Of a stretch of DNA of 64,000 nucleotides, positions 52,256-64,000 are shown one piece after another. The stretch is from Roseobacter sinensis (lineage in GTDB: Bacteria; Pseudomonadota; Alphaproteobacteria; Rhodobacterales; Rhodobacteraceae), in the NCBI RefSeq assembly GCF_025755255.1, contig NZ_JALIEB010000007.1:1-64000 (forward strand). Direction: 5' to 3'. Position 1 is the stretch's first letter, and every line of letters starts with the position of its first letter. Made by a program: the position numbers and the translations under genes. The notes under the pieces were generated by a model. The model was given only the letters and a program-made list of their open reading frames with translations. It was not told the DNA's origin and did not search any database.

Positions 52256-53266
52256 ATGAAGTTATTTTCGAGACTGTCCGGAGCTGCCGTGGCTGCCGTG
52301 CTGGTCGCCGGAACGGCCGCTGCGCAAGACCCCACGTTCTTCCGTATCGGAACCGGTAGCGCCGGCGGCACGTACTTTCCGATCGGCGGAACCATCGCGA
52401 ACGGCATTTCCGCGCCTCCGGGCTCGCGGCCCTGCGAAGAGGGTGGCCAATGCGGTGTGCCCGGCCTGATCGCCATTGCTCAATCCACCACCGCGTCGGT
52501 CTTCAACAATACGGCCGTGGAAAACGGCGAGCTGGAAGCGGGGCTTGCCGCCGCGGATGTGACACGCTCGATGTATCTGGGCGAGGGCAAGTTCGAGGGC
52601 AAGCCGCACCCGAAGCTGCGCATCGTCGCGAACCTCTTTCCGGAGGATCTGCATTTGGTGATGCCGAAGGGCACTCAGATCTCCAGTCTCGCGGATCTTG
52701 CGGGCAAGCGGGTTGGTATCGCGCAGGCCGGCTCGGGCACGCAGGTGGCTGTGGAGCAGATGCTCGCCGAGTGGGGTGTGACCCGTGACAATATGGACGA
52801 GGCGGAGTTGAACAACAGCCAATCCGCCGAACGGCTCGCGGATGGCCAGCTTGACGCGTACTTCTACGCCGCGGGCTGGCCTGTCTCTGCGATGGTGCAA
52901 CTCGCCACCACCAAGGGTATGGACCTGCACAGCTTCAGTGACGAGGATCTGGCCAAGATCAACGAGATCATCCCGGCCTACATCCCGTCGTCGATTCCGG
53001 CCGGTGTCTACGAGGGTGTCGACTACGAAGTGAAAACGCCGGCGGTGTCGGCCTTGCTGGTCGTCTCCTCCGACCTCTCGGAAGAGCTGGTCTATGGCAT
53101 CACCAAGGCGCTGTGGAACGACAACACCCGCAAGCTGCTCGACAACGGTCATGCGAAGGGGAAACAGATCACGCCCGATACGGCGCTCGACGGGATTGCC
53201 GCGCTGGGCGTGCCGCTCCATGCGGGTGCCGAGAAGTTCTACAAGGAAGCCGGGTTGCTGGAGTAA
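52256..53266 (+). CDS. TAXI-type TRAP transporter substrate-binding protein
   Basis: 336 residues. Sec signal peptide (about 1-23, ending TAAAQ), then the TAXI family opening PTFFRIGTGSAGGTYFPIGGTIANG, which is diagnostic. GKRVGIAQAGSGTQVAVEQML and LADGQLDAYFYAAGWPVSAM follow. TAXI proteins deliver substrates such as amino acids or dicarboxylates to a fused TRAP permease driven by an ion gradient. GGGAG is 8 bp before the ATG. A terminator-like hairpin lies between this gene and the permease gene. Substrate is unknown; the downstream DadA-like oxidase points to an amino or imino acid. Confidence 0.9.
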   Translation: MKLFSRLSGAAVAAVLVAGTAAAQDPTFFRIGTGSAGGTYFPIGGTIANGISAPPGSRPCEEGGQCGVPGLIAIAQSTTASVFNNTAVENGELEAGLAAADVTRSMYLGEGKFEGKPHPKLRIVANLFPEDLHLVMPKGTQISSLADLAGKRVGIAQAGSGTQVAVEQMLAEWGVTRDNMDEAELNNSQSAERLADGQLDAYFYAAGWPVSAMVQLATTKGMDLHSFSDEDLAKINEIIPAYIPSSIPAGVYEGVDYEVKTPAVSALLVVSSDLSEELVYGITKALWNDNTRKLLDNGHAKGKQITPDTALDGIAALGVPLHAGAEKFYKEAGLLE

Positions 53267-53292
53267 GGCCTCTCTTTCTGCCTTACCGGCCA

Positions 53293-53330
53293 GGAGCGGC
53301 GGGCGTAATCCGCGCGCCGCTCCGCTTTTT
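53293..53330 (+). terminator. Rho-independent terminator/attenuator between TAXI gene and TRAP permease
   Basis: GGAGCGGCG (53293-53301) and CGCCGCTCC (53315-53323) form a 9-bp stem with a 13-nt loop, followed by GC and five T (53326-53330). It lies 27 bp after the binding-protein stop and 31 bp before the permease start in the same operon, so partial read-through is expected. Confidence 0.75.
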
Positions 53331-53360
53331 AGTCACATCACATGACGATGGGGATGCGCG

Positions 53361-55577
53361 ATGAGCCGCCACCAAACAGATCCCGTGCGCGAGTTGAGCG
53401 AGCAGGAGCTTGCCGCCATCGAAAAGAAATACGACGAGGGTGCCGCCACACGCGCCGTCACGCCCGGGTTCGGCAAGTTCCTCAGATATGTGGCGCTGAC
53501 CTTCGCCGTGTATCACTATCTGACGGCCGGCTTCGCGCTGCCGCCCGATTACTGGCACATGGGGTGGCACCTCAGCGGTCTCTTCATCCTGACCTATGCG
53601 CTCTACCCATTGGTGAAGACACCTACATCTTTCGATCTGAACACCGGGGCCTTGCGACTGGGGGGTGTGCCCTTTCTCGACCTGATCCTCATGGTGCTCG
53701 GTGTCGCCTCGGCCCTCTACCTTGGTCTCGCCTGGCGCGGGATCGAGTGGCTGGGCGTCGAGGAGATGACCTTCCGAATGGGCAACCCAAACGGCTATGA
53801 CATGCTCTTCGGCTGCATCCTGATCGTGCTGGTGCTGGATATCGCACGCCGGACGCTGGGCTGGATCCTGCCGCTGATCATCTCCGTCTTCATCTGTTAC
53901 GCCCTGTTCGGCCCCTATTTTCCGGGGCTGCTTCAGCATCCCGGCGTGAAGTTCAACACCTTCGTCTCGTCGATGTACTTCCCGCAGGAGGGGATCTTTG
54001 GCGTGACGCTCTGGGTGGTTTCGACCATCGTGTTCCACTTCGTGCTCTTCGGGGTGATCGCGCAGCGCACCGGGTTGGGGCAGCTCTTTATCGACAACGC
54101 AACGATCCTTGCGGGGCGCTATACCGGGGGCCCGGCCAAGGTGTCGGTCGTGTCCTCGGCCTTCTTCGGGACGATCTCGGGGTCGTCGGTGGCGAACACC
54201 GTCTCGACCGGCGCGCTGACGATCCCCAACATGAAGCGGCTGGGCTATCCGGGACATTTCGCCGGTGGTGTCGAGGCGGCAGCCTCCGCAGGCGGACAGA
54301 TCACCCCGCCGATCATGGGGGCGGCCGCCTTCATCATGGCCGAGTTCCTCGAGCTGCCCTACACCACGATCGTGATCGCGGCGATCTTTCCGGCACTCCT
54401 GCACTACGTTGGTGTCTTTGCCGTGGTGCACCTGATGGCCCGCAAGCTGGGTCTGAAAGGGCTTGCGAAGGATGCGCTGCCGCGCCTCGGTGCTGTCTGG
54501 CGGGATGGTTGGGCGAACATCGTGCCGCTCGTGGGCCTTCTGGTCGTGCTTTTCTCGGGATACACGCCGTACATGTCCGCCTTCTGCGGCATCTCGCTGG
54601 CCATCATCGCGGGGATGAGCCGGGCGCGGGAGCCCGTGACGCTGATCTATGCGGCCGCCTTCATCGCCTTCGTCGTCTGGAAGTACACAGGAGGCGGGTT
54701 CGACCTGACGATGTCAGCGATCCTCATCGGCGGTGCCGTGCTGGCGACCCTGAACCCCCAGCGGCGCATCTCGATCTCCGAGATGGGAGATACCTTCGAG
54801 ACCGGCGTGAAATACGCCCTCGCCGTCGGCGCTGCTTCGGCGGCGGTGGGGATTGTCATCGGGGTGATCAACACCACCGGCGTCGGCTTCCGCATCGGCT
54901 TCATGGTCACGCAGGCCGCCTCGAACCTGGGCAGCGATCTGGCGTGGCTGTTCACCTTCGGCAGTTGGACCTTGTTTACCGTCGAAGATCTCACATTGTT
55001 CATCAGCCTGGTGTTCATTGCCCTGGCCTGCATTCTGATGGGCGCGGGCGTCCCGACGACAGCACTTTACATCATGCTGGTCTCGGTTGCGCAGCCCGCG
55101 CTGGCGCAACTCGGCATTCCGCCCATCGCCAGCCATATGTTCGTGCTCTACTACGGTGTCGTGGCCGAGATCACGCCACCGGTCTGCACCTCTGCCTACG
55201 CAGCCGCAGCGATTGCGAATTCGAACCCCTTCCGCACCGGGATATCCGCCTTCACCCTTGGGCTGGGCAAGGTGGTGGCACCCATGGCCTTCGTCTATGC
55301 GCCGGTGCTGCTCTTCGTCTCCTCGACGGGCTTCGATCTTTGGGAGTTCACCTATACGGCGGCGAGCTGCATCGCCGGGGTCATTGCCCTGTCGGCTGCG
55401 GTCGTGGGGTATTGGCTTGTGCCGATGGGCGTCGTCTTCCGCTGGCTCATGGCCATCGCGGGGCTCGTGTTCATCGCGCCGTCACTCCAGGCCGACCTTG
55501 CGGCGCTGATCATCGCATCACCCGCAATTGCCTCGCAGGTCCTCGCCAAGCGCCGAGGGGCCCAACCTGCGGTCTAA
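53361..55577 (+). CDS. Fused TRAP transporter permease (DctQM-type)
   Basis: 738 residues, the 4TM-12TM fused TRAP permease that partners TAXI binding proteins. After an acidic cytoplasmic start there are about 16-18 hydrophobic helices. Family landmarks are SSAFFGTISGSSVANTVSTG, AASAGGQITPPIMGAAAFIM and GAGVPTTALYIMLV. It is an inner-membrane secondary transporter. The start is the ATG after GGGGATGCGCG with weak ribosome pairing; the coding potential fits. The DadA-like gene begins 3 bp after its stop, so import and oxidation are coupled. Confidence 0.92.
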   Translation: MSRHQTDPVRELSEQELAAIEKKYDEGAATRAVTPGFGKFLRYVALTFAVYHYLTAGFALPPDYWHMGWHLSGLFILTYALYPLVKTPTSFDLNTGALRLGGVPFLDLILMVLGVASALYLGLAWRGIEWLGVEEMTFRMGNPNGYDMLFGCILIVLVLDIARRTLGWILPLIISVFICYALFGPYFPGLLQHPGVKFNTFVSSMYFPQEGIFGVTLWVVSTIVFHFVLFGVIAQRTGLGQLFIDNATILAGRYTGGPAKVSVVSSAFFGTISGSSVANTVSTGALTIPNMKRLGYPGHFAGGVEAAASAGGQITPPIMGAAAFIMAEFLELPYTTIVIAAIFPALLHYVGVFAVVHLMARKLGLKGLAKDALPRLGAVWRDGWANIVPLVGLLVVLFSGYTPYMSAFCGISLAIIAGMSRAREPVTLIYAAAFIAFVVWKYTGGGFDLTMSAILIGGAVLATLNPQRRISISEMGDTFETGVKYALAVGAASAAVGIVIGVINTTGVGFRIGFMVTQAASNLGSDLAWLFTFGSWTLFTVEDLTLFISLVFIALACILMGAGVPTTALYIMLVSVAQPALAQLGIPPIASHMFVLYYGVVAEITPPVCTSAYAAAAIANSNPFRTGISAFTLGLGKVVAPMAFVYAPVLLFVSSTGFDLWEFTYTAASCIAGVIALSAAVVGYWLVPMGVVFRWLMAIAGLVFIAPSLQADLAALIIASPAIASQVLAKRRGAQPAV

Positions 55578-55580
55578 GCG

Positions 55581-56819
55581 ATGACGCACAAGGTCACCAT
55601 ACTGGGCGCTGGCATTGTCGGTCTTTGCACGGCGCTGTCTCTGGCCGAACGTGGCATCGCCACGCGCGTGATCGACCGCCGCGCGCCGGGCAGAGAGACA
55701 TCCTACGGAAATGCGGGAGTGATCTCGCCCTGGTCGGTGATCCCGCAAGCCATGCCCGGCATCTGGCGGCAGATACCGCATTTGATGTTCGGCGCAGCCC
55801 GACCGCTTTCAGTCCACCCGAAGGTCTGGCCCCGCATGATCCCCTGGGGGCTGAGGTTTCTGTGGCAAGGCAGCGAGGCGCGGGTCAGGGCGAGTGCGGA
55901 CGCGATGGAGCTGCTCTGCGGCCCTTCGATCGAGCTTTACAGGCGGCATCTGGCCGGCACGAAGGGCGCGCATCTGATCACCGATAGTCTCTACGTGCAC
56001 GCCTTCCGGGATGGCAGCCGCGCGACCCTGGACAGCTTGGACTATGCCATTCGCCGCGAAAAGGGCGCCGAGATCGAGCTGATCGGCGCTGATCACCTGC
56101 GGCGGATCGAGCCCGCGCTCACTCGGGACTTCGCGGCGGCGATCCTCGTGGGCGGGCAGGCTCGTGCGCGCTCCCCGGGGCAGATCTGTGACTTGCTCGC
56201 CGAAAAGGCAAAGGGCCTGGGTGTCGAGTTTGTCACCGACAGCGCCCAACGGATCGAACGGGATGGGCAGGGCTGGTCGGTCATCGGTCGGACCGGGCGT
56301 TACACCAGTGAAAAGGTCGTCGTGGCGCTCGGCGTCTGGAGCGCATCGCTGCTGACGCCGCTTGGTCTGCGGCTGCCTCTGATGGCGGAACGGGGATATC
56401 ATCTGGAGTTTTCCGAGCCGGGCGTCGAGGTCAACAACTCGGTGCTCGATGTCGATGCAAAGCTTGTTGCAAGCAGCATGACCGGCGGTCTGCGGCTTGC
56501 GGGTCAGGCGGAATTCGCGCCGATTGACGCGCCGGTCGATCCACGAAAGCAGCGCCTGCTGGAGCGGTTGGGCCGGGCGATGTTCCCCGAGTTGAACACC
56601 ACACCCGCCCAGCTGTGGATGGGGCGGCGGCCCTCCTTCCCGGACAGCCGTCCGGCGCTTGGGGCCATCGCCGGCCTCGACGGCCTCTACGCCAATTTCG
56701 GCCACTCGCACTATGGTCTGATGATGGCGCCGAAGTCCGGTGAGATCCTGGCGGATGTGGTCGGGAACAGGCCGCTCAACGTCGATCTCGCACCGTTTTC
56801 GGTACATCGGTTTGCTTGA
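55581..56819 (+). CDS. FAD-dependent oxidoreductase, D-amino-acid dehydrogenase (DadA)-like
   Basis: 412 residues of the DAO family. The N-terminal dinucleotide-binding motif is TILGAGIVGLCTALSLAERG, followed by TSYGNAGVISPW, typical of DadA-type flavoenzymes, and a C-terminal FAD contact region (WMGRRPSFPDSRPALG, YANFGHSHYGLMMAPKSGE). Such proteins oxidise D-amino acids, hydroxyproline epimers or N-methylated amino acids to imino or oxo acids, passing electrons to quinone. Its tight linkage to the TAXI-TRAP permease says the imported compound is its substrate. It is convergent with a LacI gene 23 bp away. Confidence 0.85.
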   Translation: MTHKVTILGAGIVGLCTALSLAERGIATRVIDRRAPGRETSYGNAGVISPWSVIPQAMPGIWRQIPHLMFGAARPLSVHPKVWPRMIPWGLRFLWQGSEARVRASADAMELLCGPSIELYRRHLAGTKGAHLITDSLYVHAFRDGSRATLDSLDYAIRREKGAEIELIGADHLRRIEPALTRDFAAAILVGGQARARSPGQICDLLAEKAKGLGVEFVTDSAQRIERDGQGWSVIGRTGRYTSEKVVVALGVWSASLLTPLGLRLPLMAERGYHLEFSEPGVEVNNSVLDVDAKLVASSMTGGLRLAGQAEFAPIDAPVDPRKQRLLERLGRAMFPELNTTPAQLWMGRRPSFPDSRPALGAIAGLDGLYANFGHSHYGLMMAPKSGEILADVVGNRPLNVDLAPFSVHRFA

Positions 56820-56842
56820 AACGGTTTGATCTTCGCGCGGGC

Positions 56843-57850
56843 CTAGGGGAGGCGCCGCACCGAACGCCGCGCGGCCATCTCGGTCTCGAGCTTCAGCGGG
56901 GCCGCGGCCTCTCCGGTCTCGATCCACCTGGCGAGCTTGGCCGCGGCACATGTTCCCATCCGCTTGACCGGCAGGTGCACGCTGCTCAGCGGCGGCCAGG
57001 TGCTTTGCGAGCTCGGCAGATCATCGACGCCGACAATCGATATCTGCTCCGGCACGCGCAGGCCCAGCCTTTGCAACCCGGCCAACACGCCCTGTGCAAT
57101 GACATCCGACAGACACAGAAGTGCCGTGGTCCCGGATGCCTGTGCGACCAGCCCATCGACGGCGCGGGCCGCCGCCACAAAGTCGATCGGCACCTCGTGA
57201 AACGTCAGGGCCAGATCGCGCCGGCTGCGCAGAGCGTCGACACGCACACGCGTCCGGTCGTTCGTGGCTGTGGGCCCGGACAGCACCGCAATCGCCGTGT
57301 GGCCCATCTCCAGAAGGTGATCGAGCGCGCGCAAGGCAGCTTCGCCGTTGTCATATCCGACCGTCACGAGAGGGCTTTCGGGGTCGAAGTAGGAGGTCGC
57401 GATCACCGGCGTCCTGTAGCGCCGGATCAAGGCATCGAACGTGTCGCTGTGCGTGATCCCGGAGACGATGAACCCCTCAACACCGAGATTGAGGAGGTCC
57501 TGCGCCCGCTGGGCCTCTTTTTCGGGGTCGCTGTTCGTCGTCGCCACGACCAACGAAAACCCGTGCTCGGCCAGCGCGAGCTCCAGCGCGTCGAGAAAGC
57601 TGGAAAAAATGGCATTGTCCAGCGTCGGCACCAGCGCGCCGACCATATGCGTCCGGCCGGAGTTGATTGCGCGCGCCGCGGCGCTTGGCACGAAATCGAG
57701 GGCTTCGATGGCGCTGCGGACGCGCGCGTGAGTCGTGTGCGACACCGCCGAAGAACCGCTCATCACGCGGGACACCGTGGCGACGGACACACCGGCGCGA
57801 CGCGCGACGTCACGCATATTGTGCCGCTTCTTCGATACTTTTTTGGGCAA
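56843..57850 (-). CDS. LacI family repressor of the DUF1989-GcvT/proVWX unit
   Basis: 335 residues. Basic start, then the LacI helix-turn-helix (MRDVARRAGVSVATVSRVMSG) and hinge, then a periplasmic-binding-like effector domain (HMVGALVPTLDNAIFSSFL, VEGFIVSGITHSD, AIAVLSGPTATNDRT, SIVGVDDLPSSQSTWPPLSS). The TTG start is favoured because GGGAGGGGCGC precedes it; ATG 57817 is the alternative. It faces the DUF1989-GcvT gene over a double palindrome (57894-57930) that starts 44 bp from its own start, so both autoregulation and control of the onium-compound operon are likely. Confidence 0.88.
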   Translation of the reverse strand: MPKKVSKKRHNMRDVARRAGVSVATVSRVMSGSSAVSHTTHARVRSAIEALDFVPSAAARAINSGRTHMVGALVPTLDNAIFSSFLDALELALAEHGFSLVVATTNSDPEKEAQRAQDLLNLGVEGFIVSGITHSDTFDALIRRYRTPVIATSYFDPESPLVTVGYDNGEAALRALDHLLEMGHTAIAVLSGPTATNDRTRVRVDALRSRRDLALTFHEVPIDFVAAARAVDGLVAQASGTTALLCLSDVIAQGVLAGLQRLGLRVPEQISIVGVDDLPSSQSTWPPLSSVHLPVKRMGTCAAAKLARWIETGEAAAPLKLETEMAARRSVRRLP

Positions 57851-57893
57851 GCGCCCCTCCCGATCATCGCCTTTGCGCGAGGCCTATTGACAG

Positions 57894-57930
57894 ATGTAAC
57901 TAGTTTCAAACATCATGAAACTAGTTACAT
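57894..57930. promoter_or_regulatory. Double operator between lacI and the DUF1989-GcvT gene
   Basis: ATGTAACTAGTTTCA (57894-57908) and TGAAACTAGTTACAT (57916-57930) are exact reverse complements with a 7-bp spacer. Each arm is itself an almost perfect palindrome around AACTAGTT. This gives two dimer sites centred 21 bp apart, about two helical turns. The arrangement suits cooperative binding by the adjacent LacI protein and would cover the start region of the rightward transcript. Confidence 0.85.
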
Positions 57931-57950
57931 GCTGCCAGTACAGGCCCAAT

Positions 57951-60269
57951 ATGCAAGACTTACTCCCCTTGCGCAGTTTCTCAAACATCGGACATATGGC
58001 TCATGGTCGCTATTTTGCCGGCTTCCCGCAGAGGACAACTGTCTCCCATCGGATCGACCCGCGTGGCAGCCTGTTGGTCAAGGCCGTCAAAGGCGATCTC
58101 ATCCGGATCAGCCTTGAAGGGCCCGGGGCGGAGATCGCTATCCTGGCCTTTGATCCCAGCGGTGCGCGCCGCGAGGCCGATCTGGGGATCTCACCGCCCA
58201 AGGCCCTCTCGGCCGGCGATTTCGCTGCTGCTCCGTTGACCGGATGGCTCGGTGCGCATGGCGTGACGGGCGAGCTGAGCCTTGAGGCCAGTGCGGTCTC
58301 CTATCAGGCCGATGGGGTCGTGCTGCGGGTGCCTTCTGCACTGACGCTCTGGATCGTCAACCCCGCGGCCCCGGTCGATCTTGTCAACGGGACGGGGCGC
58401 GGTGTTGCACGCGTCGAGCACACGAAGCAGGCAGGCCAACTCGATCTGCCGGAGCCTCTGGGTGATGTGCGTGATGAATTCACTGTCGCGCGGGGCACGG
58501 CGCAGGCCTATCAGCTGCAGCGGGGCGAAGTGCTTCAGATCATCGATGTCGAGGGGCAGCAGTGTTCGGATTTCCAGGCGTTTGGACTGGCAGCCCTGGA
58601 CCGCGCGCAGGAGCGGATGATCGACGGCACCGCGACGCGCAGCATGGTGCGTCGCTCCTTTCCGGGGCCGGGGCTCTTCGACAAGTTCTTCGATGCGGAG
58701 ATGACACCGATGCTGCGGGTTCTCCGAGACACCTGCGGGCGCCACGATACCTTTGGTCTGGCCTGCACCGCGCGCGGATATGAAGAGCGTGGTTTTCCGG
58801 GGCATGTGAATTGCTCGGACAATATCTCTCGCGCGGTTGCGCCATTTGGCGTTGCACCCCGTACGGCGTGGCCGGCGATCAATTTCTTCTGGAACACTTG
58901 GATCGACGCGCATCATCACCTGCAGACCGAAGAGAGCTACTCGCGGCCCGGAGACTATGTGGCGATGGAGGCGCTCGACGATCTGACCTGTGTGAGCACC
59001 GCCTGCCCGGACGACATCGACCCCATCAACGGGTGGAACCCCACCGATGTTCACGTCCGCATCTATCGGCCCGAGACGCGGATCACGCGGTCGGTCGCTT
59101 ATCGCAGCAAAGAGGATGCGCCCATGCAGATCAGTCAGGAATCTGCCTTTCACGAGCGGCTCGCGCCTCTCACCGACCATTTTGCCCCGGCGCGCGATTT
59201 GTGGTTGCCGGTCTCGTTCCCGTCTCACGGAACGCTGGGCGAGTACTGGGCCTGCCGGGAGGCGGCCACCCTTCAGGACATGAGCGGGTTGCGCAAGTAT
59301 GACGTGATGGGCCCGGATGCCGAGCGGCTGTTGCAGCGCGCATTGACCCGCGACATCGCGCGCCTTGCGGTTTGGCGGGGCAGCTATGCGGTCATGTGCG
59401 ATGACACCGGGCAGGTGATCGACGACGGGACGCTGTTCCGTCTGGCGCCGCATCTCTTTCGCTGGTGCTGCGGGTCCGAGGAAAGCGGCCGGGCGCTGAC
59501 CGCACTTGCCGAGCGCGAAGGGCTTCAGGTGCGCATTCACGACTTGGGCGGTGCGCTGCCCAACCTTGCGCTGCAGGGCCCGAAATCGCGCGAGATCCTG
59601 AGGAAGCTCGTCTTTACGCAACCGCACGTCCCCAACCTCGACCAGCTGAACTGGTTCGGTGCCACCGTCGCGCGGGTCGCCCACCGGGAAGGGGCACCGT
59701 TCTTCCTGACGCGCAGCGGCTACACGGGCGAGCTTGGATACGAGCTTTTCTGTTCGAAGGAAGATGCCGTCGAGCTGTGGGATTCCGTGATGGAGGCAGG
59801 CGCGGAGTTCGGGCTGAAGCCCATGGGATCTGCGGCGCTGAACATCATTCGGATCGAGGCAGGGCTGGCCGCGGCCGGAGCGGAGTTCACCGCAGGTGTC
59901 GATGCCTTCGAGGCGGGGCTCGGCTTTGCCGTCAATCTCAAGAAGAGCGACTTCGTGGGCAAGCCCGCGCTGGAGCGCAACGCGACCGCCCAGCGGCATC
60001 AGCTGAAAGGGTTGCTGTTTGATTGTACCGACGTGCCGCCGCATGGCGCGCCGGTGTTCTGTACCGAGCGTCAGATCGGCACGGTCACATCCGCCACCCA
60101 TTCACCGATGCTGGAGCGGTCGATCGCGATGGCGCGGCTCAATATCGAACACGCAGGCAACGGAACGGCAGTGCAGGTCGGGCAGATGGATGGTCGCATG
60201 AAGCGTCTGTCGGCAACGGTTACGGACATCCCCTTCGTCGACCCCAAAAGAGAAAGGGCGCGGGCGTGA
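57951..60269 (+). CDS. DUF1989-GcvT fusion protein (aminomethyltransferase-type demethylase candidate)
   Basis: 772 residues. A beta-rich N-terminal region (about 20-165) and a DUF1989/urea-carboxylase-associated domain (about 175-375; IIDVEGQQCSDFQAF, GHVNCSDNISRA, VSTACPDDIDPING) are fused to a complete GcvT/aminomethyltransferase domain (about 395-765; RKYDVMGPDAERLLQ, LALQGPKSREIL, SGYTGELGYELF). GcvT folds move one-carbon groups from methylated amines to tetrahydrofolate. DUF1989 has no settled function. Starts at ATG 57915 (inside the operator) and ATG 57996 are possible; I chose 57951. Its stop overlaps the start of proV (GTGA), so it is made with a betaine-type transporter and may demethylate the imported compound. 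Confidence 0.82.
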   Translation: MQDLLPLRSFSNIGHMAHGRYFAGFPQRTTVSHRIDPRGSLLVKAVKGDLIRISLEGPGAEIAILAFDPSGARREADLGISPPKALSAGDFAAAPLTGWLGAHGVTGELSLEASAVSYQADGVVLRVPSALTLWIVNPAAPVDLVNGTGRGVARVEHTKQAGQLDLPEPLGDVRDEFTVARGTAQAYQLQRGEVLQIIDVEGQQCSDFQAFGLAALDRAQERMIDGTATRSMVRRSFPGPGLFDKFFDAEMTPMLRVLRDTCGRHDTFGLACTARGYEERGFPGHVNCSDNISRAVAPFGVAPRTAWPAINFFWNTWIDAHHHLQTEESYSRPGDYVAMEALDDLTCVSTACPDDIDPINGWNPTDVHVRIYRPETRITRSVAYRSKEDAPMQISQESAFHERLAPLTDHFAPARDLWLPVSFPSHGTLGEYWACREAATLQDMSGLRKYDVMGPDAERLLQRALTRDIARLAVWRGSYAVMCDDTGQVIDDGTLFRLAPHLFRWCCGSEESGRALTALAEREGLQVRIHDLGGALPNLALQGPKSREILRKLVFTQPHVPNLDQLNWFGATVARVAHREGAPFFLTRSGYTGELGYELFCSKEDAVELWDSVMEAGAEFGLKPMGSAALNIIRIEAGLAAAGAEFTAGVDAFEAGLGFAVNLKKSDFVGKPALERNATAQRHQLKGLLFDCTDVPPHGAPVFCTERQIGTVTSATHSPMLERSIAMARLNIEHAGNGTAVQVGQMDGRMKRLSATVTDIPFVDPKRERARA

Positions 60270-61315
60270 GTGTCGTCGAACTGGAGAACGTCTGGAAGGT
60301 CTTTGGCAGCCGGGCATCGGAAGCCATGGCGGCAATCAGGGCCGAAGGGCTTGGCAAGGCGGAAGTGCTGGAGCGTTTCGAGGCCGTGGTGGGCGTGAAA
60401 GATGCCTCCTTCTCGGTCGAGGAGGGCGAGATTTTCTGTCTCATGGGCCTGTCGGGTTCCGGCAAATCGACGCTTGTGCGCCACATCAACCGGCTGATCG
60501 AGCCAACCTCCGGCACCATCCGGATCATGGGCGAAGACATCGGTGCGATGAAGTCGGAGCAGCTTCGGGCGACCCGGGCCGACAAGATCGGCATGGTCTT
60601 CCAGAACATGGCGCTGCTGCCGCACCGGTCCGTGCGCGACAACATCGGCTTCGCGCTCGAACTGCGGGGGATCGACGGCTACAGCCGGGCGCAGGCCGCG
60701 GACCGCGCGCTCGAGACGGTGTCGCTGCATGGCTATGGCGACCGACTGCCATCGGAGTTGTCAGGCGGCATGCAGCAACGCGTCGGCCTCGCGCGGGCTC
60801 TGGCGGCGGATCCGGAAATCCTGCTGATGGACGAGCCCTTTTCCGCGCTCGATCCGCTGATCCGGCGCAACCTTCAGGATGAGTTCCTGGGCCTCAGCCA
60901 GAACCTGAAGAAGACCACTGTCTTCATCACTCACGATCTCGATGAAGCAATCCGCATGGGAGACAGGATCGGGATCATGAAAGACGGCGAGATCGTGCAG
61001 ATCGGCACGGCAGAGGACATCGTGACCGCGCCCGCCGATGACTATGTGGCCGACTTCGTCGCGGGGATCTCGCGGCTCAAACTGGTGTCGGCCTCCAAGA
61101 TCATGGTCAACCCCGACGCCCATGCCGCGGCGCACGGGCCCATTGATCCGGCAAAGAGCTACCCCGTGGCCAGCCCCGAGGATGATCTGGATTCGCTCGT
61201 GGGCCTCAGCACCGGTGCGGATCTTCCGGTTCTGATCAAACATGACGACTCGATTGTGGGGATCGTGACGAAAGACACCCTTCTCAAAGGGTTGCAAGGA
61301 GGGGCAGAGGCATGA
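60266..61315 (+). CDS. proV: Glycine betaine/proline-type ABC transporter ATP-binding protein (ProV-like)
   Basis: 349 residues. ProV-specific N-terminal extension (VWKVFGSRASEAMAAIRAEG), Walker A GLSGSGKST, signature LSGGMQQRVGLARAL, Walker B ILLMDEPFSALD and H-loop ITHDLDEA. The C-terminus is a shortened regulatory region (VLIKHDDSIVGIVTKDTLL) rather than two full CBS domains. The GTG start overlaps the previous stop by 4 bp and has AAAGG 8 bp upstream; the longer frame lies inside the fusion gene. It energises import of a quaternary onium compound. Confidence 0.9.
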   Translation: MSVVELENVWKVFGSRASEAMAAIRAEGLGKAEVLERFEAVVGVKDASFSVEEGEIFCLMGLSGSGKSTLVRHINRLIEPTSGTIRIMGEDIGAMKSEQLRATRADKIGMVFQNMALLPHRSVRDNIGFALELRGIDGYSRAQAADRALETVSLHGYGDRLPSELSGGMQQRVGLARALAADPEILLMDEPFSALDPLIRRNLQDEFLGLSQNLKKTTVFITHDLDEAIRMGDRIGIMKDGEIVQIGTAEDIVTAPADDYVADFVAGISRLKLVSASKIMVNPDAHAAAHGPIDPAKSYPVASPEDDLDSLVGLSTGADLPVLIKHDDSIVGIVTKDTLLKGLQGGAEA

Positions 61316-63138
61316 GCGGAGCTGTCATAGGCGGCGGTGCGGAGCAACGCGAGATTGATGATCGGGACGTCTCTGTCGGCACCTTCTTGCAGGAGAAGGT
61401 GCCCTACTACGCGCCGGTCTTCGAGAAGGTGCAACGTGCGACCCTGCCACGCTGGCACCTGAACATCTGGGCGCTGCTTGTGCCCTGGCTGTGGTCGGCG
61501 TACCGCGGTGTCTGGGTTCTGTTCTGGATCGCGCTGGCGATTGACGTGACCGCAATCGTCTGCCTGATGCAGGTGGTGAAGTTCAGCCCGCTCCTGGCCG
61601 AGGCGCAACTTAACCCGGAGGCCAACGCCACGCTGATCGCGCGCTATTCGCATTGGATCAACATCTACAGCTGGATCGGCGTGCTGCTGCTGATCGGTGG
61701 GCGGCTGTGGATGGCGAGTTCGGCCAACCGCCTCTATTACGCCCAATACGCCCGATGGCGGATCAACAGTGCGGTGCCGAGCGGCGTCAGCATGCAGCGG
61801 CTGGTGCTGGGCGTCATGGTCATCCTGATCGTCGCACCGCTCACCACCTATCGCGCCACCCAGCTGCGGCTGGATGAGCGAGCCTGCTTCAATCACATCC
61901 GCGCCGCGGAAGGCGTGGAGGCGCTTCTCGCCCGCTATGATGCCAGCGATGTGACGGATCTGATGTCCATCCTCTCGGGCGAGATCACGCAGCGGGAAAC
62001 CCGCATGGAGGCGCTGAACGCGATCGAGACGCTGAGTGATGAACAAAAATCGGAGCGGGCCGCGCTGCGTAAAGAAGCGCGCGATCTGGGCCGGGATCTT
62101 GAGCTGACCGAGGATTTCACCAACATCACCGCGCGGGACAAGTTCGACTGCTATTTCATCGACGACTTCCCGACGCTCGCCCGGCTGGAGCCGCCAGAGG
62201 ACATCACCTATCGTCGCGTGCCGGACGAAGAGGCGATTGCCGCGGGCCGGGAGGGGGCGACCAAGGTGATCGAGCAGATCAAGGACCCGGTCGAGGGCCG
62301 CAAGGTCACCATCTTCACCTATTCGGCCGAAAGCATCGACATCTCCATCAACTACCTCCGCGCCCAGTTTGCGGGCGGCTTTGATGCAATGACCAATGTG
62401 CTGCGGCAGTCGCTCATTCGGGTCGAGGTGGCCTTCATGCAGACCCCCTGGCTGGTGGTCGCGTTTCTCTTCATCGCGCTCAGTTGGGCCTTCGCGGGGC
62501 TCGGTACGACCATTTTCGTAGCGAGTTCCTTGGGTTTCCTTGCGCTCTTCGAGCTCTGGCAGATTGCGATGCAGACCATGGCGCTGGTGGTTGTCTCGAC
62601 GGCTGTCTGCGTACTCGTCGGGCTGCCCATCGGTATATGGATGGCCAAGAACAAGTGGTTCCGATGGATCACCGAGCCGATCCTCGATGTGATGCAGACC
62701 ATCCCCTCGCTCAGCTATCTGGTGCCTGCCGTGGCTTTCTTTGGCATCTCGCAGCCACCCGCGGTACTTGCCACCGTGATCTTCGCGATGCCGCCGATGA
62801 TCAAGCTGACCGCACTTGGCATTCTGCAGGTGCCCGAAAGCACCAAGGAGGCGGCGCTGGCCTTCGGGGCCTCCGAAAAGCAGCTCTTGCGCAAGGTCGA
62901 GCTGCCCATGGCGATCCCCTCGATCATGGCGGGGTTGAACCAGACGATCATGCTGGCCCTCTCGATGGCCACCATCTCGGCGTTCATCGGCGCTGAAGGG
63001 CTCGGCGCCATCGTGACCTCTGCCCTCGGCGACGCGCAGGCGGGCAAGGGGCTTTTGGCGGGCATCGCCATCGCGCTCGTTGCGATGATGATCGACCGCA
63101 TCCTCAAAGGGATCCGGAACTCGTTCAGCCGGATCTGA
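61312..63138 (+). CDS. proW: Glycine betaine-type ABC transporter permease with large N-terminal extension (ProW-like)
   Basis: 608 residues, about twice a minimal permease. Residues 1-190 hold several helices including the WHLNIWALLVPWLWSAYRGVW segment. Residues 200-330 are hydrophilic, with a probable coiled coil (AIETLSDEQKSERAALRKEA). The BPD_transp_1 domain occupies about 385-600, with the coupling loop EAALAFGASEKQLLRKVELP and the VMQTIPSLSYLVPAVAFFG segment. It overlaps proV by 4 bp. The extension may be a periplasmic or regulatory domain; I do not recognise it. Confidence 0.88.
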   Translation: MSGAVIGGGAEQREIDDRDVSVGTFLQEKVPYYAPVFEKVQRATLPRWHLNIWALLVPWLWSAYRGVWVLFWIALAIDVTAIVCLMQVVKFSPLLAEAQLNPEANATLIARYSHWINIYSWIGVLLLIGGRLWMASSANRLYYAQYARWRINSAVPSGVSMQRLVLGVMVILIVAPLTTYRATQLRLDERACFNHIRAAEGVEALLARYDASDVTDLMSILSGEITQRETRMEALNAIETLSDEQKSERAALRKEARDLGRDLELTEDFTNITARDKFDCYFIDDFPTLARLEPPEDITYRRVPDEEAIAAGREGATKVIEQIKDPVEGRKVTIFTYSAESIDISINYLRAQFAGGFDAMTNVLRQSLIRVEVAFMQTPWLVVAFLFIALSWAFAGLGTTIFVASSLGFLALFELWQIAMQTMALVVVSTAVCVLVGLPIGIWMAKNKWFRWITEPILDVMQTIPSLSYLVPAVAFFGISQPPAVLATVIFAMPPMIKLTALGILQVPESTKEAALAFGASEKQLLRKVELPMAIPSIMAGLNQTIMLALSMATISAFIGAEGLGAIVTSALGDAQAGKGLLAGIAIALVAMMIDRILKGIRNSFSRI

Positions 63139-63178: not shown

Positions 63179-64000
63179 ATGAAACTTTGGACATCCACCG
63201 CCATCGCCGCCGCGCTGGCCTTCAGCGCCGCACCCGGTATCGCGCAGGAAAAGATCACACTCTCGGACCTCAGCTGGAACGGGGCGCAGGCCATCGGCCA
63301 TGTGCTGAGCGCCATCATCGAAGGGGAAATGGGCGGCGAGGCCGAGATCGTCTCTGGTATGAACCAGGCCGCCGTGATCATGGCCGGCATGGACAAGGGC
63401 GACGGCTCGATCGACGTCTACACCGACCTCTGGATGCCCAACCAGCAGGCGCTTTGGGACGAATACATCGACGGGAACCAGACGGTTCTGACCAACAAGC
63501 CCTACAAGGGCACGTCCAACATCTATGTGCCGAGCTACATGGCCGACAAGGTTTCCTCCATCGAGGACCTCAACAACCCCGAGATTGCCGCGATGTTCGA
63601 CACCGACGGCAATGGCAAGGGGGAATACTGGGCCGGGGACGTGACCTGGGCCTCGACCAAGCGCTGGCAGATCAAGTTCAAATCCTACGGTCTCGACGGG
63701 CTTTGGGAGCCGAACATCGTCTCTGCCGATACGTTCAAGGCTGGTCTTGAGGCCGCCTATACCGCGGGCAAACCGCAGCTCTTCTACTACTGGACGCCCG
63801 AGGCGATCCACGTGAAGTACGATCTGACCGCTCTCGAAGAGCCGGAGCGTTTTGATGGCTGCGAGGATGTCGATCTTGATGCGGAAGACTGGCTCGAAGT
63901 GTCCAGCTTTGAATGCGTGATCGCGGCCAACGACATCTTCGTCGCCTACTCCAAGTCGCTGGAAGAGCGGAACCCGGCCGTTGCCAAGATGCTGTCGAAC
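63179..64000 (+). CDS. proX: Glycine betaine-type substrate-binding protein, ProX-like (cut by window end)
   Basis: 274 codons are present; the gene runs off the right edge. Sec signal peptide (about 1-22, ending GIAQ), then the OpuAC/ProX-type binding fold: ITLSDLSWNGAQAIGHVLSAI, IDVYTDLWMPNQQALW and KPQLFYYWTPEAIH. The Trp and Tyr residues are of the kind that make aromatic cages for quaternary amines in this family. AGGGAG lies 9 bp before the ATG. It follows proW by 40 bp and completes the importer fed into the DUF1989-GcvT enzyme. Betaine, choline-like or sulfonium substrates are all possible. Confidence 0.9.
   Translation, partial: MKLWTSTAIAAALAFSAAPGIAQEKITLSDLSWNGAQAIGHVLSAIIEGEMGGEAEIVSGMNQAAVIMAGMDKGDGSIDVYTDLWMPNQQALWDEYIDGNQTVLTNKPYKGTSNIYVPSYMADKVSSIEDLNNPEIAAMFDTDGNGKGEYWAGDVTWASTKRWQIKFKSYGLDGLWEPNIVSADTFKAGLEAAYTAGKPQLFYYWTPEAIHVKYDLTALEEPERFDGCEDVDLDAEDWLEVSSFECVIAANDIFVAYSKSLEERNPAVAKMLSN

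Follow-up and report, generated by a model that had tools for sequence, protein, structure and literature searches.

In the 64,000-nt stretch of Roseobacter sinensis DNA analyzed here (the window), a compact operon encodes a protein that, to judge from its sequence, belongs to a separate clade of the TMAO demethylase (Tdm) family and is not a plain Tdm. We lean slightly toward a reading in which the operon combines an importer with a redox-neutral, formaldehyde-releasing demethylation and in which the main substrate is a compound other than TMAO. Taken by itself, the reaction class (metal-dependent redox-neutral demethylation with formaldehyde as a product) appears very probable, while a main substrate other than TMAO is fairly likely.

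Locus layout and operon structure

By the ORF check of the window, the enzyme gene is a reading frame of 772 aa on the plus strand (57951-60269) with an ATG start at 57951. A second in-frame ATG lies at 57915; because it overlaps one operator copy, and because the nearest relative aligns from 57951, residues are numbered from the latter. The features of the locus are listed below in window coordinates, each with its basis.

56843-57850, minus strand: LacI-family regulator, divergent from the operon (Pfam, neighborhoods)
57887-57916, plus strand: sigma-70-like promoter match, TTGACA, 18, CATCAT (consensus match only)
57895-57908, no strand assigned: predicted operator copy 1, TGTAACTAGTTTCA (pattern from clade-2 loci, genome scan)
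57916-57929, no strand assigned: predicted operator copy 2, TGAAACTAGTTACA, 21 bp from copy 1 (pattern from clade-2 loci, genome scan)
57951-60269, plus strand: Tdm-like protein, here called Tdm clade 2, with N-terminal region, DUF1989 and GcvT (Pfam, NCBIfam, PDB match, alignment, tree)
58482-58985, plus strand: DUF1989 with the putative Tdm metal-site residues D207, C272, H285, C288, C352, and D355 (Pfam, alignment; roles from parts of PMC12560246)
59163-59930, plus strand: GCV_T folate-binding-type domain, presumed folate arginine replaced by L630 (Pfam, alignment)
60000-60242, plus strand: GCV_T C-terminal barrel domain, GCV_T_C (Pfam)
60266-61315, plus strand: ABC transporter ATPase, ProV/choline type, GTG start (Pfam, NCBIfam)
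61312-63138, plus strand: ABC transporter permease, ProW/choline type, 608 aa (Pfam, NCBIfam)
63179-64000, plus strand, continuing to contig position 64132: ProX-like periplasmic binding protein gene (sequence- and structure-database matches, alignment)

An earlier sequence-only reading of this DNA had proposed a DUF1989-GcvT fusion, joined by 4-bp overlaps to ProV/W/X-like genes and placed under a LacI repressor of its own. The fusion is confirmed by the Pfam domains within the frame. The overlaps hold for the ProV- and ProW-like genes: the stop of the tdm-like gene and the start of the ATPase gene share GTGA (60266-60269), and the ATPase and permease genes share ATGA (61312-61315). The ProX-like gene starts 40 bp past the permease stop and is cut by the window end. 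The divergent gene and its conserved operator likewise agree with a dedicated LacI regulator.

Just before the LacI gene, the plus strand of the window (52256-56819) encodes a TAXI-type TRAP binding protein, a fused TRAP permease, and a D-amino acid dehydrogenase-like FAD enzyme. None of seven loci (L043-L049) has this set, as such, next to the clade-2 gene.

Family and active-site residues of the DUF1989-GcvT enzyme

The 772-aa protein matches the Pfam domains DUF1989 (E 3.3e-41), GCV_T (E 2.1e-60), and GCV_T_C (E 1.1e-16). The NCBIfam TMAO demethylase model NF053776 matches it over the full length at 1028 bits, which is below the curated equivalog cut-off of 1100 bits and far exceeds the scores of the NCBIfam models for glycine cleavage, sarcosine oxidase, DMSP demethylase, and UAAP. 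The PDB entries 9q59 and 9q5l, both TMAO demethylase, match the query at E 2.7e-190. By sequence, the DUF1989-GcvT composition is already known and is that of Tdm. Given the full-length Tdm model match and the 9q59 match, the earlier statement that no characterized pathway has such a composition is wrong, and a wholly new composition was dropped as a candidate.

The Tdm of M. silvestris, as described in the parts of PMC12560246 used here, has the same two domains and an additional N-terminal DUF1989-like domain. It carries Zn at C263, C279, and C343, with Fe proposed at H276 and D346 and with D198 nearby, and it converts TMAO to dimethylamine and formaldehyde with or without oxygen. According to the same parts of that report, the reaction site is thought to be the DUF1989 metal site and not the folate fold, the folate contacts are lost (E. 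coli R223 corresponds to L618), THF use is probably vestigial, and THF is not necessary for the enzyme.

We take D207, C272, H285, C288, C352, and D355 of the query as the equivalents of M. silvestris D198, C263, H276, C279, C343, and D346, respectively, an assignment made by motifs and by an alignment of homologs other than the M. silvestris sequence itself. In this alignment of 110 rows, query included, five of the six residues are identical throughout (110/110) and D355 in 109/110; the Pfam DUF1989 match has D355 and some of the last loop at its edge or slightly outside it. The earlier suggestion that Cys residues of DUF1989 might serve as ligands thus gains substance, as DUF1989 would be the metal-bearing domain and the Tdm metal-site residues appear to be kept.

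The folate side turned out differently from what had been supposed. In the query, L630 aligns with the arginine in the GcvT motif of B. subtilis; the folate arginine was placed through this motif instead of by direct alignment to the E. coli chain (R223). The leucine is invariant in an 18-row family alignment. A complete folate-type site had been expected, whereas the presumed folate-contact arginine is a leucine, as reported for M. silvestris Tdm in the cited parts of PMC12560246, and hence folate dependence is doubtful.

AlphaFold gave a model of moderate quality for the Tdm-like protein (pLDDT 77.6). A Foldseek search with this model gave GcvT folds at the top and the DUF1989 structures 3siy, 3oru, and 3di4 lower; 9q59 was not among the 50 matches listed.

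Twelve places in the query genome match the Tdm model, eleven of them through the GcvT part only, and hence the genome is rich in GcvT-type domains. A stand-alone second DUF1989 protein, encoded on the same contig (L004:4692-5567; contig C63, about 104,690-105,570), is weakly UAAP2-like (41.9 bits vs. a cut-off of 284.7).

A clade separate from canonical Tdm

Tdm-like matches (E <= 1e-100) were found in 39 of 149 searched genomes of the same bacterial family. Members 52-100% identical to the query occur in eight of these genomes, query included, and the rest have only members at 41-48%; three of the eight carry both identity bands. Clade 2 comprises 19 of the 111 rows of a tree, set apart by a branch with SH-aLRT 100 and length 0.54, and 9q59 lies outside it; the tree is a quick search with a midpoint root for drawing only, and the M. 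silvestris and R. pomeroyi enzymes are not among its rows by name. The 1100-bit cut-off divides the scored rows along the same line, with clade-2 rows at 1028-1055 bits (6/6) and canonical rows at 1183-1237 bits (5/5). In view of the two-peaked identities and the genomes with both copies, a plain Tdm is no longer our preferred reading.

Conserved residues that distinguish the clade include Q203 (R), G276 (Y), F282 (Y), A306 (G), and I359 (A), several of them close in sequence to the metal ligands. Such differences are not significantly enriched near the ligands (5/29 conserved positions near them vs. 5/55 in the rest of the DUF1989 region; Fisher p 0.30); both comparisons were made without L066, identical to L016, and without the long-branch homolog L069. 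No description of clade 2 appeared among the open-access papers listed by the literature searches.

The clade-2 enzyme resembles M. silvestris Tdm and 9q59/9q5l in domain order, length, Zn/Fe-site residues, and the leucine in place of the folate arginine. It differs from canonical Tdm not only in identity, clade, and position under the curated cut-off but also in its binding protein, regulator, and genome context.

Genes of the TMA/TMAO pathway and gene neighborhoods

Eighteen clade-2 genomes were searched for pathway genes, eight from the family sample and ten behind named loci. Nine of them contain a canonical-band second copy (44-49%), called canonical by identity and not by tree placement. 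The TMA monooxygenase Tmm is present in all nine dual-copy genomes and in none of the nine clade-2-only genomes (Fisher p 4e-5; the counts and the p value treat related genomes as independent), and the query genome has no Tmm match at E 1e-80. The DMA monooxygenase DmmA (NF041259) exceeds its cut-off in 5/9 dual and 0/9 clade-2-only genomes, with no match in the query genome. GmaS (TIGR03105) does so in 9/9 and 3/9, respectively, with the query genome among the latter three (G000:C57:139360-140643; 649.8 bits, above the cut-off). For comparison, among 31 canonical-Tdm-only genomes Tmm was found in 29, DmmA in 17, and GmaS in 25.

TmoX was sought in eight of the 18 clade-2 genomes, where matches above 225 bits occur in 0/5 clade-2-only and 2/3 dual genomes; one clade-2-only genome (G073) has a weak match (35%, 204 bits). 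At E 1e-20, TmoX matches were found in 25/31 canonical-only genomes. With half of the clade-2 genomes lacking Tmm, which begins the TMA pathway, and with an importer and a regulator of its own, clade 2 may act on a different compound. In the genome of Roseovarius albus, the clade-2 band and the canonical band are represented by two copies each.

The gene neighborhoods show the same division. Within flanks of up to about 10 kb (shorter at contig ends; query not counted), Tmm was found at 0/18 clade-2 loci vs. 46/69 others, TmoX at 0/18 vs. 18/69, and a binding protein of the query type at 11/18 (10/17 distinct) vs. 1/69. The 18 loci include L045 and L066, which are one sequence, and L069 is counted among the 69 others. 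The ProX-type protein is absent at 7/18 clade-2 loci, two of which (L063 and L064) end near the gene on one side. A scan of ten neighbors against Pfam, with L066 left out of the neighbor clustering, revealed no common partner gene around the loci devoid of the ProX-type protein: DctM genes lie elsewhere in L048 and L049, the other neighbors are unrelated, and in L064 (Roseovarius albus) the clade-2 copy is directly behind the TRAP genes DctP and DctM.

TmoXWV, the known partner importer of TMAO demethylase, is an ABC transporter of the ProXWV kind, like the one encoded here. The TMA cluster of R. pomeroyi comprises tmm, tdm, dmmDABC, and gmaS with the regulators TmaR and TmoR (parts of PMC5520151 and PMC13390433). 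It holds tdm together with a TMAO importer, much as the query locus pairs a Tdm-like gene with an importer; in contrast, the query locus consists only of these two, with LacI in place of the AraC/GntR regulators, and the query genome has neither a Tmm nor a DmmA match.

The binding protein

The solved structures nearest to the binding protein are DmpX of the DMSP importer DmpXWV (7YLE, E 9.5e-14) and the glycine betaine binder ProX (1R9L, E 2.8e-10), followed by TmoX of R. pomeroyi (4XZ6, E 8e-7); the protein falls below every NCBIfam cut-off for ProX or choline binders. The model of its structure is poor (pLDDT 63), and hence the pocket was read from an alignment of 22 proteins, of which 11 are clade-2 binding proteins, query included.

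W55, W102, and W177 of TmoX are kept in all 11, and the W222 position is W or Y. In contrast, the position of TmoX Glu131 is occupied by S, A, T, or Q in 11/11 (Ser in the query), whereas it is E in 4XZ6, in the eight locus TmoX proteins aligned, and in DmpX. The F106 position is Q, R, or H, and the F220 position is Y, as in DmpX. Tyr200 of DmpX is kept in 11/11, but Glu113 and Thr64 are not. Tyr200 has an aligned tyrosine in the betaine binder ProX as well and is therefore not specific to one ligand. In TmoX, Glu131 hydrogen-bonds the oxygen of TMAO (residue roles from parts of PMC8918994 and PMC10030565), and the matching change E114A in TmoX of HTCC1062 abolished TMAO binding (part of PMC8918994). 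Hence, by sequence, the loss of this glutamate in all 11 proteins and the replacement of F106 suggest that the ligand is not TMAO and may be betaine-like.

The LacI regulator and its predicted operator

The predicted operator is a palindrome, TGWAACYRGTTWCA, with two copies at the sigma-70-like match (one such match found vs. 0.2 expected in shuffles). Copy 1 is situated inside the promoter spacer, and copy 2 begins at the last base of the promoter. The operator pattern was derived from the clade-2 loci themselves; hence its presence there is by construction, and only its rarity elsewhere is informative. In the 18 clade-2 genomes it has 22 sites; 21 of these precede a clade-2 gene and are spread over 13 genomes. 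The reversed pattern occurs eight times in the same genomes. The sole match away from a clade-2 gene is TGAAACCGGTTTCA (G157:C11:137816-137829). In a tally that left out L066, the operator was found at 12/13 clade-2 loci with a LacI neighbor (query included) and at 0/5 without one. Among the 69 other loci only L069 has it, and that locus also carries the query-type binding protein.

As 21 of the 22 sites are upstream of clade-2 genes, the LacI regulator seems to be dedicated to the clade-2 operon and, so far as the sequences tell, to serve it alone. From its family and the position of the predicted sites we infer that it represses the operon.

Proposed function and alternative readings

In the mechanism that we favor, one small onium or N-oxide compound would enter through the ProX-type ABC transporter and be demethylated by the Tdm-family enzyme at the Zn/Fe site of DUF1989. 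The reaction would be redox-neutral and yield formaldehyde plus the demethylated compound, by analogy with the action of Tdm on TMAO. The LacI-type repressor, bound at the tandem operators, would hold transcription down, and repression would presumably be lifted by the substrate or the product. Rather than TMAO itself, a related compound is the probable substrate, and it may bear a carboxylate as well. An explicit candidate is a carboxylate-bearing S- or N-oxide osmolyte, e.g., dimethylsulfoxonium propionate (DMSOP), which clade 2 might convert to methylmercaptopropionate and formaldehyde in a redox-neutral way; we consider this specific assignment quite improbable. The sequence-only reading had suggested an importer of onium or betaine-type compounds coupled to their demethylation: the kind of importer and the demethylase-family enzyme stand by sequence, and the link to folate becomes doubtful with the arginine replaced by L630. 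With a single enzyme, a single importer, and a single repressor whose operator is predicted, the operon is compact enough for direct tests of ligand binding and of the release of the repressor.

The most serious alternative is a plain TMAO demethylase with an alternative TMAO importer, serving formaldehyde or C1 energy and not nitrogen, which would account for the absence of Tmm and Dmm. It is a tentative possibility that we rate as less than even. The full-length similarity to Tdm speaks for it, and as the six marked metal-site residues are unchanged, TMAO may still be the substrate. The three tryptophans of TmoX persist in the binding proteins, and since TMAO can come from outside, Tmm is not required. 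Nor does a missing Dmm exclude TMAO, since one SAR11 strain that has no dmmDABC can grow with TMAO (part of PMC8918994); SAR11 lacks Dmm but keeps Tdm (parts of PMC5520151 and PMC8918994). It is harder to reconcile with plain TMAO use that a separate clade exists beside a canonical-band Tdm in half of the genomes searched, that the TMAO glutamate is gone and F106 replaced in every binding protein compared, and that metal-site loop residues (Q203, G276, F282, I359) are differently conserved, though this enrichment is not significant.

It seems unlikely that the enzyme acts on a betaine-type compound by folate-dependent methyl transfer, forming mainly methyl- or methylene-THF. GCV_T and GCV_T_C do match over nearly their whole profiles and the transporter is of the ProX/choline type, but the invariant leucine at the presumed folate arginine, together with the dispensability of THF for M. 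silvestris Tdm (parts of PMC12560246), argues against it. Finally, the DUF1989 part might act like the urea-amidolyase-associated UAAP proteins, with the GcvT part incidental. The similarity to the UAAP2 and UAAP1 models is weak (88 and 55 bits vs. cut-offs of 285 and 206, respectively), the Tdm model by contrast covers the whole protein, and no urea or guanidine enzyme was seen among the seven scanned proteins of 52256-63138; such a role is extremely improbable.

Since clade-2 proteins fall just under the Tdm cut-off, similarity annotation would name them TMAO demethylases or leave them unnamed. If, as we favor, the substrate of clade 2 differs, surveys that count tdm genes would make TMAO turnover look larger than it is and would miss a second way in which imported osmolytes yield formaldehyde.

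Distribution of clade 2

Named clade-2 members, taken from the best 80 of at least 591 relatives and thus no census, come from Leisingera, Ruegeria, Cognatishimia, Roseovarius, Roseibium, and two Chromatiales. The homolog at L069, from an uncultured Kiloniellaceae, is a long-branch intermediate whose locus also has the operator and a binding protein of the query type. Of the clade-2 residues it shares F282, A306, and I359 but keeps R203. Its genome (G159), excluded from the counts of 18, has a second copy at 46% and no Tmm. In the record for L126 (Chromatiales, ex Bugula neritina), two ORFs of 725 and 85 aa stand in place of a single clade-2 frame.
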